This document shows, one piece after another, positions 751-6,474 of a DNA stretch of 64,000 nucleotides (its first letter is position 1; every line of letters begins with the position of its first letter). The notes under the pieces are model-generated. The model was not told the DNA's origin, did not search any database, and was given only the letters and a program-made list of their open reading frames with translations. A program made the position numbers and the translations under genes. The stretch is from Falsiroseomonas tokyonensis. Its GTDB lineage: Bacteria; Pseudomonadota; Alphaproteobacteria; Acetobacterales; Acetobacteraceae. The stretch lies in assembly GCF_019024325.1 (NCBI RefSeq), contig NZ_JAFNJS010000002.1:310118-374117 (forward strand), given 5' to 3'.

Positions 751-2460
751 ATGACACTGCCCCCGACCGGCCGCCCCACCATCAGCGGCACGCGCCACGC
801 CATCAGCGCGGGCCACTACCTGGCGGCCGCGGCGGGCTATGCCATCCTCGAGGCCGGCGGCAATGCGGTGGATGCGGGCTGTGCCGCGGGCCTCGCGCTG
901 GGTGTGCTGCAGCCGGACCTGGTGAGTGTGGCGGGCGTCGCGCCCATCCTGATCCGCAAGGCGGATGGCACGGTGGAGAGCATCGCCGGCCTTGGCCATT
1001 GGCCGCGCGCGACCCCGCCCGATGTCTTCATGCGCGAGCATGGCGGCCAGATGCCGCCGGGGGTGCGCCGCATGGTGGTGCCCGCCGCCATCGATGCCTG
1101 GATCCAGGCCCTGTCCCGTCACGGCACGATGAGCTTCGGCGAGATCGCCGCCGCCGCCATCCGCTTCGCCGGCGAAGGCTTTGCGATGTACCCGCTGCTG
1201 CGGGAGAGCATCACGGCGCATGAATCCGAATACCGCACCTGGGCGCAGAACGCGGCGATCTTCCTGCCCGGCGGCAAGGTGCCGGCGCTCGGCCAGAAAT
1301 TCGTGCAATCCGACCTCGCCCGAAGCCTGGCCTATATGGTGGACCAGGAACGCGCGGCTTCGGGCAAGGGGCGGGAGGCCGGCCTCCAGGCCGCGCATGA
1401 CGCCTTCTACAAGGGCGACCTGGCGCAGCAGGTGGTGAAATTCGTCCAGGCCGAGGGCGGCTTCCTCTCGGCCCAGGACATGGCGGAGTATCGCAGCCGG
1501 ATCGAGCCCGTGGTGTCCCGCGACTGGCGCGGACACACCCTGCTGACCTGCGGCCCCTGGTGCCAGGGGCCGGCGCTGACAGAGGCGCTGCTGATCGTCG
1601 AGCGCCTCGGGCTGGACGGGCTGGCGCATAACTCCGCCGCCTATATCCATGTGCTGGTGGAGGCGCTGAAGGGCGCGCTGGCCGATCGCGAATACCACTT
1701 CGGCGACCCGGCCATGGTGGACGTGCCGCTGGAGCAGCTTCTCTCGCCCGGCCATATCGCGGCGCGCGCGGCGGCCATCGACCTGAAGCGCGCGCATCCG
1801 GGCCTGCCGGAGCCCATCCTCGGCCGGGGCAACGACCTGCCCGAGGCGAGCCGCGCGGCCCTGCCGAAGGTGGAGGCGGATACCTCCTACGTCGCGGTGG
1901 TGGACCGCTGGGGCAATGCCTTCAGCGCCACGCCCTCCGACGGCTCCTGGAACGTGCCCGTGGTGTCGGGCACGGGCCTGGTGATTTCGGGCCGCGGTTC
2001 GCAGAACCGGCCGGACCCGGCGCATCCCTCCGGCGTCGCCCCCGGCAAGCGGCCGCGGCTGACGCCCAACCCGGCCATGGTGGTGACGAAGGATGGCGGT
2101 GCCATGCCCTTCGGCACGCCGGGCGGCGATGTGCAGATCCAGGCCATGCTGCAGGTCATGCTGAACATCCTGCATTTCGGCATGGAGGTGCAGGACGCCA
2201 TCGAGGCCCCGCGCGTCGCCAGCTATTCCTTCCCCTCCTCCTTCGCGCCCTACGAATACTTCCCGGGACGCCTGGCGGTGGAATCGCGCATCCCGGAGAC
2301 GGTGCGGGCAGAGCTTGCCGCCCTCGGCCATGAGGTGAAGCCCTGGCCGGACATCACCTGGCTGGCCGGCAGCGTGGAGGTGGTGCTGGATGATGTGGCG
2401 GCGGGCCTGAAGCGCGCCGGCGCCGATCCGCGCCGCCCCGCCTACGCCATCGCCTCGTGA
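751..2460 (+). CDS. Gamma-glutamyltransferase family Ntn-hydrolase
   Basis: This 569-residue protein resembles gamma-glutamyltranspeptidases, Ntn-hydrolases that cleave themselves and use the new N-terminal Thr to attack gamma-glutamyl bonds. The early AGGNAVDAGCAAGLALGV block (about 35-52) is the typical large-subunit start. Thr378 in ADTSYVAVVD is the expected autocleavage site, followed by WGNAFSATPSDGS, and a GTPGGDVQ block lies near 455. No signal peptide is evident, so it may be cytosolic, unlike classical periplasmic GGT. Many proteins in this broad family act on other amides, so the substrate is unknown. Its stop overlaps the GTG start of the DUF1194 gene (GTGA), which implies co-translation. 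Confidence 0.85.
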   Translation: MTLPPTGRPTISGTRHAISAGHYLAAAAGYAILEAGGNAVDAGCAAGLALGVLQPDLVSVAGVAPILIRKADGTVESIAGLGHWPRATPPDVFMREHGGQMPPGVRRMVVPAAIDAWIQALSRHGTMSFGEIAAAAIRFAGEGFAMYPLLRESITAHESEYRTWAQNAAIFLPGGKVPALGQKFVQSDLARSLAYMVDQERAASGKGREAGLQAAHDAFYKGDLAQQVVKFVQAEGGFLSAQDMAEYRSRIEPVVSRDWRGHTLLTCGPWCQGPALTEALLIVERLGLDGLAHNSAAYIHVLVEALKGALADREYHFGDPAMVDVPLEQLLSPGHIAARAAAIDLKRAHPGLPEPILGRGNDLPEASRAALPKVEADTSYVAVVDRWGNAFSATPSDGSWNVPVVSGTGLVISGRGSQNRPDPAHPSGVAPGKRPRLTPNPAMVVTKDGGAMPFGTPGGDVQIQAMLQVMLNILHFGMEVQDAIEAPRVASYSFPSSFAPYEYFPGRLAVESRIPETVRAELAALGHEVKPWPDITWLAGSVEVVLDDVAAGLKRAGADPRRPAYAIAS

Positions 2461-3209
2461 TTCCGCGCCGCGCCCTGCTGGCCGCGCCGGCGCTGGCGGC
2501 AGCGCCTGCGCGGGCCCAGGTGGGAGCCGCGGGCGCGGCGGTGGACCTGCTGCTGGTGCTGGCGGTGGATGCCTCCGGCTCGATCGACGCGGATGAATTC
2601 GCCCTGCAAAGGGATGGCATCGCGGAGGCCATCGCCCATCCCGCGGTGCTCGCCGCCATTCGGTCCCGGCCGCGCGGGGCCATCGGCGTCGCCATGGTGG
2701 AATGGGGCTCGCCGGGCGGGGCGGCGACGGTGGTGGACTGGATGCGCGTGACGGATGCCGCCAGCGCCACGGCCGCCGCGGAGGCGATGCGCGACGCGCC
2801 GCGTTCGCGCCAGTCCTACAACGCCATCGGCGACGCCATCCTGCACGCCACCGCGCTGATCGCGGCCGCCCCCTGGCGGGCGGAGGAGCGCACCATCGAT
2901 GTCTCGGGCGACGGCCCCGATATCCGCAGCCTGACGCCGGCGGCGGAGGCGCGGGACTACGCCGTGGCACAGGGCATCGTGGTGAATGGCCTGGCGATCG
3001 AGGCCAGCTCCGCCTGGCGCGACGGCCGCCTCGCCGCGGCCTATGAGCGCGATGTCATGGGTGGCCCTGGCGCCTTCGTGATGCGGGCCGAGGACCGGCG
3101 CGACTTCGCCCGCGCCCTGCGCGCCAAGCTGATCCGGGAGGTGGCGCTGCATCCGGCAGGGGCACAATCCGCCCATGCCACAGGCAAGGTGGGCGCAAGC
3201 GGCGCCTAG
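2457..3209 (+). CDS. DUF1194 vWA-like secreted protein
   Basis: A 250-residue protein with a short signal-like N-terminus ending in ARAQ (about 1-21). A von Willebrand factor A fold follows: the strand LLLVLAVDASGS carries the metal-binding DxSxS motif (Asp38, Ser40, Ser42). Downstream, SYNAIGDAI and RTIDVSGDGPD fit the second and third MIDAS loops. DUF1194 proteins are of unknown function; a MIDAS usually means metal-dependent protein binding. The start is a GTG that overlaps the stop of the GGT-like gene, the only start that keeps the signal sequence. Export to the periplasm is inferred. Confidence 0.8.
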   Translation: MIPRRALLAAPALAAAPARAQVGAAGAAVDLLLVLAVDASGSIDADEFALQRDGIAEAIAHPAVLAAIRSRPRGAIGVAMVEWGSPGGAATVVDWMRVTDAASATAAAEAMRDAPRSRQSYNAIGDAILHATALIAAAPWRAEERTIDVSGDGPDIRSLTPAAEARDYAVAQGIVVNGLAIEASSAWRDGRLAAAYERDVMGGPGAFVMRAEDRRDFARALRAKLIREVALHPAGAQSAHATGKVGASGA

Positions 3210-3287: not shown

Positions 3288-4796
3288 GTGACCGAAACCG
3301 GCCGCGCTTTCGACGAGATGCATGAAGATGGCGCCGTGCGCCCTGCCTATGCCGGCATCGCCGCCTGGCTCCAGGCGCATGGACTGGAGGCCCTGGCGGT
3401 GAAGCGGGCGGAGGCCGAGGCCCTGTTCCGCCGCGTCGGCATCACCTTCGCCGTCTATGGCGAGGGCGGCGACCCGGAGCGGCTGATCCCCTTCGACGTC
3501 ATCCCGCGCATCCTGGCCCGCGCCGAATGGGATCGCCTGGCCACCGGCCTGACCCAGCGCGTGAAGGCGCTGAACATGTTCATGGCCGATGTCTACGGCA
3601 AGCAGGAGATCCTGGCGGCCGGCCTGATCCCCCGCGCGCTGGTGCTGGAAAACGAGGCCTATTGCCCGCAGATGCAGGGGTTTGTCCCGCCCGGCGGCAT
3701 CTACAGCCATATCTCCGGCATCGACCTGGTGCGCACCGGGGCCAACGACTTCTACGTGCTGGAGGACAATTGCCGCACTCCCTCCGGCGTCTCCTATATG
3801 CTGGAGAACCGGGAGGCGATGCTGCGGCTGTTTCCGGCGCTCTGTGCCAGCCACCGCTTGGCGCCGGTCAGCCACTATCCGGAAGATCTGCTGGAGACGC
3901 TGAAGGATGTGGCGCCGCCGAACTGCAAGGGCGAGCCCTGCGTCGCCATCCTGACGCCGGGCCATTTCAACAGCGCCTATTACGAACACTGCTTCCTGGC
4001 CGATGAGATGGGCGTGGAGGTGGTGGAGGGCGCCGACCTTTTCGTGCAGGACGACGTGGTCTTCATGCGCACCACCGCCGGGCCGCGCCGCGTGGATGTG
4101 CTGTATCGCCGCGTCGATGACGACTACCTGGACCCGAAGGTGTTCCGCCCGGACAGCATGCTGGGCGTACCCGGCATCTTCGGCGCCTATCGCGCGGGCA
4201 ATGTCACCCTGGCCAATGCGCCGGGCGCGGGCATCGCCGATGACAAGGCGATCTACCCCTTCGTGCCGGAGATGATCCGCTTCTACCTGGGCGAGACGCC
4301 GCTGCTGCAGAACGTGCCGACCTTCCTCTGCGAGCGGGAGGCGGACCGCGCCTATGTGCTGGCGAACATTTCCGACCTGGTGGTGAAGCTGGCGCGGGGT
4401 TCAGGCGGCTATGGCATGCTGATCGGGCCGCATAGCACGGCGGAACAGCGCGCGGAGTTCACGCGGCGCATCCTGGAAAAGCCGGCGGATTACATCGCGC
4501 AGCCGACCCTGGCGCTGTCCACCGTGCCCTGCCTGGCAGGGGAGGAGATCGCGCCGCGCCATGTGGACCTGCGCCCCTATGTGCTGACCGGCAAGGCGGT
4601 GCGGATCGTGCCCGGCGGGCTGACCCGCGTGGCACTGCGGGCGGGGTCGCTGGTGGTGAATTCCTCCCAGGGCGGCGGCACCAAGGACACCTGGGTGGTG
4701 GATGACGCGCCCAGCCAGTCCCAGTCGCAGAGCCAGTCCCAATCCGGCGGCGGGCGGCAAAGCCAGAGCCAATCCCAGTCGCAGGGGCAGGGGTAG
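3288..4796 (+). CDS. Circularly permuted type 2 ATP-grasp protein (DUF404/DUF407) with Ser-Gln tail
   Basis: This 502-residue protein belongs to the circularly permuted ATP-grasp family (DUF404 then DUF407), predicted carboxylate-amine ligases that build peptide-like bonds. Conserved stretches include FIPFDVIPRI-like text (LIPFDVIPRI), LEDNCRTPSG, DVLYRRVDDDYLDP and KLARGSGGYGM near residues 365-380. The family is commonly found with alpha-E, transglutaminase-like and Anbu genes, and the first and last of these partners follow here. It starts with GTG at 3288; an ATG at 3318 is an alternative. Residues 476-502 are an unusual low-complexity tail of alternating Ser and Gln broken by GGGR. It ends 5 bases before the alpha-E gene. 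The true substrate is unknown. Confidence 0.87.
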   Translation: MTETGRAFDEMHEDGAVRPAYAGIAAWLQAHGLEALAVKRAEAEALFRRVGITFAVYGEGGDPERLIPFDVIPRILARAEWDRLATGLTQRVKALNMFMADVYGKQEILAAGLIPRALVLENEAYCPQMQGFVPPGGIYSHISGIDLVRTGANDFYVLEDNCRTPSGVSYMLENREAMLRLFPALCASHRLAPVSHYPEDLLETLKDVAPPNCKGEPCVAILTPGHFNSAYYEHCFLADEMGVEVVEGADLFVQDDVVFMRTTAGPRRVDVLYRRVDDDYLDPKVFRPDSMLGVPGIFGAYRAGNVTLANAPGAGIADDKAIYPFVPEMIRFYLGETPLLQNVPTFLCEREADRAYVLANISDLVVKLARGSGGYGMLIGPHSTAEQRAEFTRRILEKPADYIAQPTLALSTVPCLAGEEIAPRHVDLRPYVLTGKAVRIVPGGLTRVALRAGSLVVNSSQGGGTKDTWVVDDAPSQSQSQSQSQSGGGRQSQSQSQSQGQG

Positions 4797-4801
4797 CCGC
4801 C

Positions 4802-5743
4802 ATGCTCTCCCGCACCGCAGACAGCCTCTACTGGATGGGCCGCTACACCGAGCGCGCCGGCAACCTCGCGCGCGGCATGCAGGTGGCGCTGCGCATGGCC
4901 GGGCTGGGCGAGAGCCTCGGCGATACCGACAATGAATGGCGCAGCCTGCTGGTCGCCACCGGCGCCGAGCCCGGCTTTCGGGCCGAGCATGCGGAGGTGA
5001 CGCCGGAGGCGGTGATCCGCTGGCTGGCGATCGACGCCAAGAACCCGTCCTCCATCGCCAATTGCATCGAAGCCGCGCGCAGCAATGGCCGCGCCGTGCG
5101 CACGGCCCTGACGGTGGATATGTGGGAGGCGCTGAACGACACCTGGCGCGAGATGCGCCTCCTGGCCGGCACCGCGACGGATGCCGACCGGCTGCCGGGC
5201 TTCCTGGACTGGGTGCGCGCCCGCACGCTGCTGTTCAACGGCGCGGCGGCCGATACCATGCTGCGCGACGATGGCTGGCGCTTCGTGCATCTGGGCGTGA
5301 TGCTGGAACGCGCCGACAACACGGCACGTCTGTTGGACGCGAAGCACACGGCGCTGGATGGGCCGGAATCGGAAGGCGCGGTCGCCTATGCGCAGTGGCA
5401 GGCGCTGCTGCGCTCCGTCTCCGCCTTGCGGTCCTATCAATGGGTTTATCACACGCGGCTGCAGCCGAAGCTGGTGGCGGATCTGCTGATCCTGCGGCCG
5501 GAACTGCCGCGCTCCCTGCTCGCCTGCCATCGGAAGGTGGACCAGGTGCTGGACCGCATCGCGGAATCCAGCGGCGGCCGTCGCGGTGCCTGTCATCGCC
5601 TGGCGAGCGAGGCCCATGCGGGGCTGCGCGAGGCCCGCATCGAGGACATCCTAGCCGGCGGGCTGCACGACTTCCTGACGCGCATGATCGACCGCAATCT
5701 CGATCTCGGCCGCGAGATCGCCGACTTCTACCTGCACGCATGA
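4802..5743 (+). CDS. Alpha-E domain protein (DUF403)
   Basis: A 313-residue, largely helical protein starting MLSRTADSLYWMGRYTERA, the standard opening of the alpha-E (DUF403) family. Later blocks RFVHLGVMLERADNTARLLD (about 160-180) and a C-terminal FLTRMIDRNLDLGREI are also family-like. No enzymatic residues are established; in other genomes it accompanies the circularly permuted ATP-grasp protein and is thought to work with it in making or modifying an unknown peptide. Here it sits 5 bases after the ATP-grasp gene, and its TGA overlaps the ATG of the Anbu gene (ATGA), so the three genes are almost certainly one operon. Confidence 0.87.
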   Translation: MLSRTADSLYWMGRYTERAGNLARGMQVALRMAGLGESLGDTDNEWRSLLVATGAEPGFRAEHAEVTPEAVIRWLAIDAKNPSSIANCIEAARSNGRAVRTALTVDMWEALNDTWREMRLLAGTATDADRLPGFLDWVRARTLLFNGAAADTMLRDDGWRFVHLGVMLERADNTARLLDAKHTALDGPESEGAVAYAQWQALLRSVSALRSYQWVYHTRLQPKLVADLLILRPELPRSLLACHRKVDQVLDRIAESSGGRRGACHRLASEAHAGLREARIEDILAGGLHDFLTRMIDRNLDLGREIADFYLHA

Positions 5744-6474
5744 CCTATTGCGTCGGCCTGCTGCTGGATGCGGGGCTGGTGATGCTGTCCGACACCCGCA
5801 CCAATGCGGGTGTCGACAACATTTCCGTCTTCGGCAAGACCTTCGTCCACGAGACACCCGGCGAGCGGGCCCTGGCGCTGCTGACGGCCGGCAATCTGGC
5901 GGTGACGCAGGCGGTCTGGAACCGGCTGCAGGAGGGGGTGAAGCTGGACGGCCAGCTTCTCACCCTGGGCAGCGCCGAAAACATGTTCCGTGCGGCGCAG
6001 CTGGTGGGTGCGGCGGTGCGGGAGGTCTTTGCCACCGATGGTCCCGGGCTGCGCGACCATGGGCTGGGCTTCGACGTCTCCATCCTGCTCGGGGGGCAGA
6101 TCGGCACGGCGCCGCCCCGGCTGTTCCTGGTTTATGCAGCCGGCAATTTCATCGAGGCGACGGCGGACACGCCCTTCCTGCAGATCGGCGAGCACAAGTA
6201 TGGCAAGCCGATCCTGGACCGCGTGCTGAGCCCGGCAACGCCGCTGGCCGATGGCGTGACGCTGGCGCTGATCAGCATGGACAGCACGCTGCGCTCCAAC
6301 CTGACCGTTGGCCTGCCGATCGACCTGACGGTGATCCGCCGCGATGCGCTGGCCGTTTCGCTGCGCCGGCGCATCACGGAGGAAGACGCCTATTTCGCCT
6401 TCCTGCGCCAGCGCTGGTCCGAGAGCTTGCGCGAGGCCTACCAGGCGCTGCCGCGGCCGGATTGGCTGGATTAG
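5740..6474 (+). CDS. Anbu-type proteasome-like peptidase
   Basis: The 244-residue product starts MTYCVG, the hallmark of Anbu (ancestral beta-subunit), a self-assembling relative of the 20S proteasome beta subunit and HslV. Thr2 would become the N-terminal nucleophile after Met removal. Counting it as 1, Asp17 in LSDTRTN and Lys32 in FGKT match the catalytic Asp/Lys positions of the family. DVSILLGG and AAGNFIEATADTPFLQIGE are typical later blocks. The start is fixed by the ATGA overlap with the alpha-E gene; longer frames run through that gene. No transglutaminase gene, the usual fourth partner, is adjacent. Substrates are unknown. It ends base-to-base with the convergent FAD oxidase. Confidence 0.9.
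   Translation: MTYCVGLLLDAGLVMLSDTRTNAGVDNISVFGKTFVHETPGERALALLTAGNLAVTQAVWNRLQEGVKLDGQLLTLGSAENMFRAAQLVGAAVREVFATDGPGLRDHGLGFDVSILLGGQIGTAPPRLFLVYAAGNFIEATADTPFLQIGEHKYGKPILDRVLSPATPLADGVTLALISMDSTLRSNLTVGLPIDLTVIRRDALAVSLRRRITEEDAYFAFLRQRWSESLREAYQALPRPDWLD

Follow-up and report, generated by a model that had tools for sequence, protein, structure and literature searches.

The Anbu operon of the window

We analysed a 64,000-nucleotide stretch of the Falsiroseomonas tokyonensis genome (G000:C12:310118-374117; genome G000 of 6.16 Mb, 99.7% complete), hereafter the window, and focused on an operon encoding an ATP-grasp ligase, an alpha-E protein and the proteasome-like peptidase Anbu (Table 1). 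The genes lie on one strand in the order ATP-grasp, alpha-E, Anbu, both in the window and in its relatives, and this is the order of the canonical four-gene operon. ATP-grasp and alpha-E are separated by a 5-base gap and alpha-E overlaps Anbu by ATGA, in agreement with the coordinates and spacing in the preliminary description. No transglutaminase (TG) gene was found in the alpha-E/Anbu interval, and the locus thus departs from the canonical four-gene form. The ATP-grasp ends in a Gln-rich tail, which the preliminary description had missed, and the presence of such tails in related operons was found to depend on the state of the TG.

Table 1. Features of the Anbu operon and of the genes directly upstream of it (window coordinates)
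Feature	Position	Strand	Details
ATP-grasp, circularly permuted type 2 amidoligase	3288-4796	+	502 amino acids, GTG start
(Ser-Gln)n tail, C-terminus of ATP-grasp	4713-4793	+	residues 476-502
Alpha-E protein	4802-5743	+	313 amino acids
Anbu, proteasome-beta-like Ntn-hydrolase	5740-6474	+	244 amino acids, starts MTYC
Gamma-glutamyltranspeptidase	751-2460		PF01019
DUF1194 protein	2457-3209		

The ATP-grasp matched the whole Pfam profile CP_ATPgrasp_2 (PF14403; E = 9e-162, positions 1-374 of 374) and, by phmmer, the structure 3n6x (E = 4.8e-196). Across 121 TG-active operons, 124 columns reach an identity of 98% or more, and the window's ATP-grasp is unchanged at every one of them. The alpha-E protein matched the whole of PF04168 (Alpha-E; E = 2.6e-96, positions 1-294 of 294). 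Its structure model was all-helical, with a mean predicted local distance difference test score (pLDDT) of 95.7, and gave no match in the PDB at E 0.001 with Foldseek, so that alpha-E possibly has a fold without a solved structure. Anbu had no Pfam match at 0.001 and matched the solved Anbu structures 5loy (E = 1.8e-90, residues 2-242), 5nyj, 5nyf, 5lox and 5nyw. Removal of Met from its MTYC start leaves Thr1, Asp17 and Lys32 are present, and there is no propeptide, by residue count against the positions given in the available part of PMC6376114.

The ratio of nonsynonymous to synonymous substitution rates (dN/dS) of the three genes in the window's clade was 0.08-0.36, with alpha-E faster in one distant pair (0.51). 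The window locus is a genuine Anbu operon and evolves under purifying selection. The Pfam matches, structure matches and gene order bear out the earlier identification of an Anbu/ATP-grasp/alpha-E operon without a TG, and because the order is conserved and selection is purifying, it is unlikely that the genes are neighbours by chance. Decay of the operon, with the TG lost first and Anbu next, would fit four congeners (L040-L043) in which ATP-grasp and alpha-E are followed by neither a TG nor Anbu. For the window, however, decay is hardly credible in view of the low dN/dS, the Thr1, Asp17 and Lys32 of Anbu, the 124 intact columns of the ATP-grasp and the direct ATGA coupling of alpha-E and Anbu.

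Inactive and missing TGs in relatives

Of 59 genomes, 16 had Anbu, the window's own among them. The survey searched for the TG downstream of the ATP-grasp only, within 5.5 kb, and 40 of the 141 Anbu operons surveyed had no TG there, which shows that the three-gene form recurs. The Anbu operon system of ATP-grasp, alpha-E, TG-like protein and Anbu has already been described (available parts of PMC5666114 and PMC6376114). With the system published and TG-less operons recurring, the absence of the TG, from which the preliminary description had proposed an undescribed system, does not by itself indicate one.

Four loci of the same genus (L028-L031) carry a 254-amino-acid open reading frame (ORF) between alpha-E and Anbu. 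The ORF of L029, the one of the four run against Pfam, is a TG (Transglut_core, E = 1e-12; Bact_transglu_N, E = 1.4e-13). In L028-L031 the catalytic Cys is replaced by Ala or Asp and the catalytic Asp by Glu, while the His is kept. The dN/dS of this dead TG between species was 0.13-0.21 (four pairs), so it seems to be retained as a pseudoenzyme. In the window's clade the TG gene is missing from this position: alpha-E and Anbu overlap in the window and in L026 and lie 60 bases apart in L025, and in L027 (G007) an ORF stands between them (L027:6235-7217) in which no TG was detected.

We called a TG dead when its alignment departed from the Cys-His-Asp triad. This was the case in 22 of the 143 operons having a TG gene; 21 of the 22 lacked the Cys, and the remaining one, L241, appears to reflect a broken frame or a misalignment. 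A tree of 223 operons requires a minimum of 27 changes in TG activity and of 14 in the ATP-grasp tail. Judged from these alignments, operons of this type may often carry a pseudo-transglutaminase. TGs aligned as Cys-less were seen at L202, L206, L207, L209, L213, L214, L215, L217, L228, L243 and L245, some of which are Devosia and Methylobacterium loci.

The C-terminal tail of the ATP-grasp

The ATP-grasp of the window ends in 27 residues of mostly alternating Ser and Gln, starting a few residues past the conserved motif GGGTKDTW. Residues 476-502 had a pLDDT below 50 in an AlphaFold2 model of moderate overall quality (mean 76.8), and the tail is accordingly predicted to be disordered. SQ or QS motifs were found in the tails of all 12 same-genus loci read. 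The commonest Gln-Gln spacing in ATP-grasp tails was 2, with 219 counts, followed by 7, with 17 counts; Lys made up 0.7% of tail residues. At least three Gln flanked by S, T or Q occurred within the final 25 residues of 36/155 ATP-grasps, compared with 7/615 other ORFs. Tail length differed among close relatives.

Recent slippage was rejected as the sole origin of the tail. Tandem Repeats Finder gave a weak result (a hexamer, 5.2 copies, score 34), and TCN and AGY serine codons were mixed in 22 of the 37 tails having at least three Ser, as they are in the window's tail. The tail of L046 does resemble an expanded repeat.

The ATP-grasp ended in Cys at 16/155 loci (L044, L045, L048, L054, L056, L057, L061, L064-L066, L068, L121, L157 and L167-L169), compared with 0/154 alpha-E, 0/88 Anbu and 0/77 TG ends. 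Twelve of these operons were without a TG and four had an active TG.

Distribution of the tail with respect to the TG

The loci comprised the window, 14 of the 15 in one set, and 60 of 234, 45 of 88 and 35 of 154 genomes with a match in the family, class and phylum, respectively. The first set held 155 rows, and the merged set 223 operons, with an active TG in 121, a dead TG in 22 and no TG in 80. A later set was made up of the best 80 of 590 loci from named genomes, closest relatives first; 74 were new and 71 usable. Rows were dropped when no ATP-grasp was found (L039, a distant Anbu), when the contig ended too early (L077, L104, L131, L193, L205 and L230) or when they duplicated first-set loci (L180-L182 and L184-L186). 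About ten loci (G1002, G968, G874, G878, G960, G863, G1012, G484, G657 and G584) were chosen in the knowledge that the alignment overran the core, which inflates the tail frequency in those loci; their TG state was unknown when they were chosen. Because a first tail rule, based on Gln fraction, overlooked clear SQ/TQ tails, two more were applied after it.

By the third rule, the ATP-grasp tail was present in 3/121 operons with an active TG (L111, L149 and L158), 8/22 with a dead TG and 40/80 without a TG. The other two rules gave 2, 8 and 31, and 2, 7 and 39, in the same order. Outside the window's family (150 rows, by an approximate split) the counts were 3/106, 4/18 and 6/26. When the tree was taken into account, the tail depended on the state of the TG, both in 155 rows (likelihood-ratio test, p = 0.0025 and 0.009 for two tail rules) and in 223 rows (p = 0.005; the observed value was reached by 1 of 60 null simulations). 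The tail was likewise associated with the absence of a Gln-rich TG end (p = 0.003), and it showed no dependence on the absence of Anbu (p = 0.58). On this last result, the tail was rejected as a docking element for Anbu alone.

Gln-rich ends on the TG and on alpha-E

Active TGs themselves end in Gln. A terminal Gln was found in 87/121 active TGs and a Gln within the last three residues in 109/121, with 4/22 and 6/22, respectively, for dead TGs; 17/615 other long ORFs of the same loci, picked by length rather than annotation, had a terminal Gln. The ATGA overlap was ruled out as the cause of the terminal Gln, since its codons were CAA (54) and CAG (33), all three stops followed, and a gap preceded Anbu in 67 of the 69 cases in which Anbu came after such a TG. 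The terminal Gln stands at a variable distance from the end of the TG domain, and at L073, L076, L127, L208, L244 and L251 the TG ends in an (SQ)n stretch like that of the window's ATP-grasp. Of the 143 operons that have a TG gene, 1 had a Gln-rich end on both TG and ATP-grasp (Fisher p = 1e-4, without correction for the tree). Among the 40 TG-less operons without an ATP-grasp tail, 12 had a Gln-rich alpha-E end.

Interpretation of the tail

The window most plausibly holds a working Anbu-type amidoligase operon whose TG was probably inactivated and then lost, and whose ATP-grasp bears a Gln-rich tail as TGs do elsewhere; we put this forward tentatively, short of firm belief. A Gln-rich C-terminal tail placed on one operon protein or another according to the TG state appears, from sequence comparison, to be a pattern not described before. 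No title or abstract on such a tail was found in a search that left out most subscription papers, Iyer et al. 2009 included, and an earlier description may exist.

Several observations weigh against this interpretation. An independent-pairs test (rule A) gave 14 pairs differing in the tail, about 2 (0-4) of them informative and none opposed, and was not significant; moreover, 38 of the 51 tailed rows belong to the window's family, in which the largest tailed clade lies. With so few informative pairs and the tailed rows concentrated in one family, the association rests on few independent events. The later set had an ATP-grasp tail in 0/53 operons with an active TG, 1/12 with a dead TG (L243) and 0/6 without a TG, which confirms that the tail is rare beside an active TG, and gain after TG loss is not shown by that set alone. 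The three tailed operons with an active TG are exceptions to the pattern, and a Gln-rich end was missing from ATP-grasp, alpha-E and TG alike in 28/80 TG-less, 8/22 dead-TG and 27/121 active-TG operons under the rule applied. The alpha-E rule also fired in 15/121 active-TG operons, partly on ordinary ends, and the alpha-E part of the evidence is therefore weaker. ATP-grasp tails finish in different residues (Gly, Cys and others), which leaves no obvious candidate for a specific C-terminal acceptor. Finally, the constant presence of ATP-grasp follows from the design, as the survey was seeded with it.

The 51 tailed operons had alpha-E in all 51 cases, Anbu in 33 and a TG gene in 11, which is most simply explained if the tail serves ATP-grasp and alpha-E. 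The tail would then be a disordered recognition or acceptor peptide for the ATP-grasp/alpha-E core, a single Gln-rich element able to reside on different operon proteins. The ligase and alpha-E would bind it and form an amide bond on it or adjacent to it. An active TG, if present, could act on the same glutamines, and Anbu, if present, would cut the product of the ligase. A more specific version makes the tail the missing substrate of the system, a Pup-like acceptor borne in cis on TG, ATP-grasp or alpha-E, which ATP-grasp and alpha-E extend or conjugate and Anbu trims; we regard this version as rather unlikely.

The regular spacing could also mean that nothing is attached to the tail. Its alternating Gln-x-Gln pattern might dock as an extended strand and join ligase, alpha-E and TG as a non-covalent assembly element. 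The dominant spacing of 2, the scarcity of Lys, the predicted disorder and the occurrence of the tail with and without Anbu are all consistent with docking. However, docking does not need a terminal Gln at a variable distance from the TG domain end, and pull-downs reported in the available part of PMC6376114, in which TG and Anbu were C-terminally tagged, gave no specific interaction among the operon proteins. We consider docking somewhat unlikely, though deserving of attention.

It is very improbable that the tail is neutral low-complexity sequence, tolerated at a free C-terminus only as long as there is no active TG to cross-link it. The rapid tail loss in TG-active lineages under the fitted model and the varying length between close relatives would suit a neutral tail; against it stand the Gln-rich ends of the active TGs themselves, the enrichment of S/T/Q-flanked Gln in ATP-grasps over other ORFs and the mixing of serine codons.

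The preferred interpretation, in which the ATP-grasp/alpha-E core uses the tail, bears on published work. Discussions of Anbu place it as an early relative of the proteasome, and the literature consulted names no substrate for Anbu or for its partner ligase. A tail whose position tracks the TG state provides a short peptide to consider as substrate or docking site. The published interaction test, too, may have a weakness, because the TG was tagged at its C-terminus (available part of PMC6376114). Operons without a TG, like that of the window, would represent a minimal system of three proteins.

TG genes elsewhere in the genome

The preliminary description had suggested a genome-wide search for a TG partner. 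The search found three Transglut_core genes in G000, none of them in the Anbu operon, and two alpha-E genes in all. Two of the three belong to a second, paralogous amidoligase operon on the same contig, some 200 kb upstream (L004:7000-13826; C12, about 103-110 kb), which encodes a TG/DUF2126 protein, a fusion of circularly permuted ATP-grasp and alpha-E, and a small TG. This operon has the same domain kit as the Anbu operon of the window, but its ATP-grasp is fused to alpha-E, it has two TG proteins, the small one without a terminal Gln, and no Anbu was found in the stretch. With three other TG-domain genes in the genome, a distant TG may act in the same pathway.

Such a TG could have succeeded the lost TG of the operon and use the tail as its Gln donor. 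Every one of the 41 genomes with a tailed ATP-grasp and no operon TG has another Transglut_core gene (40 by the final rule; G062 is borderline); where the operon TG is active, 33 of 41 genomes have a further TG and 8 have none. In the window's family, however, a further TG is also encoded by 13 of the 14 genomes whose operon TG is active, so the comparison says little after allowing for kinship, and we judge this role for the tail improbable.

Comparison with known systems

The window shares three of the four genes of the published Anbu operon, with the same families and order, but lacks the TG and has on its ATP-grasp an (SQ)n tail of a kind rare beside an active TG (PMC6376114 and PMC5666114, as far as available). 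According to the available parts of the same two papers, Anbu forms an open ring, binds proteasome inhibitors and cleaved no substrate tested. The Yersinia ATP-grasp frees phosphate from ATP without a known acceptor, and Gln, Glu and Anbu gave no stimulation (PMC6376114, available part). The tagging and degradation module proposed in the preliminary description is not borne out by these reports.

The Pup-proteasome may resemble the operon, and in its working only, with a disordered peptide (Gln-ended in some species), a ligase and a proteasome (PMC8599861, available part). Pup is a free protein, whereas the window's tail is part of an enzyme, and PafA and Dop are glutamine-synthetase-like, whereas the window's ligase is an ATP-grasp. 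RimK/RimB and RloABC of Pseudomonas likewise combine an ATP-grasp ligase with a protease, and RloB holds an inactive transglutaminase domain (available part of PMC12239564). They differ in that the proteases are aspartic proteases rather than Anbu, RloB is a membrane protein, and RimK has a known acceptor, the C-terminus of RpsF.

Regulation and neighbouring genes

In the available parts of the respective papers, P. putida genes for Anbu and ATP-grasp (PP_2685 and PP_2688 in strain KT2440) respond to the nitrogen source (PMC8050072), and the DUF403/404/407-TG cluster of B. cenocepacia is sigma-54- and NtrC-dependent (PMC5491218). Neither sigma-70-like nor sigma-54-like patterns were found above chance in the window.

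The gamma-glutamyltranspeptidase and DUF1194 genes (Table 1) overlap each other directly upstream of the operon. Among 12 same-genus loci, 8 had both genes upstream of the operon and 11 had DUF1194 there. A tie between the operon and these neighbours through gamma-glutamyl chemistry is a guess.

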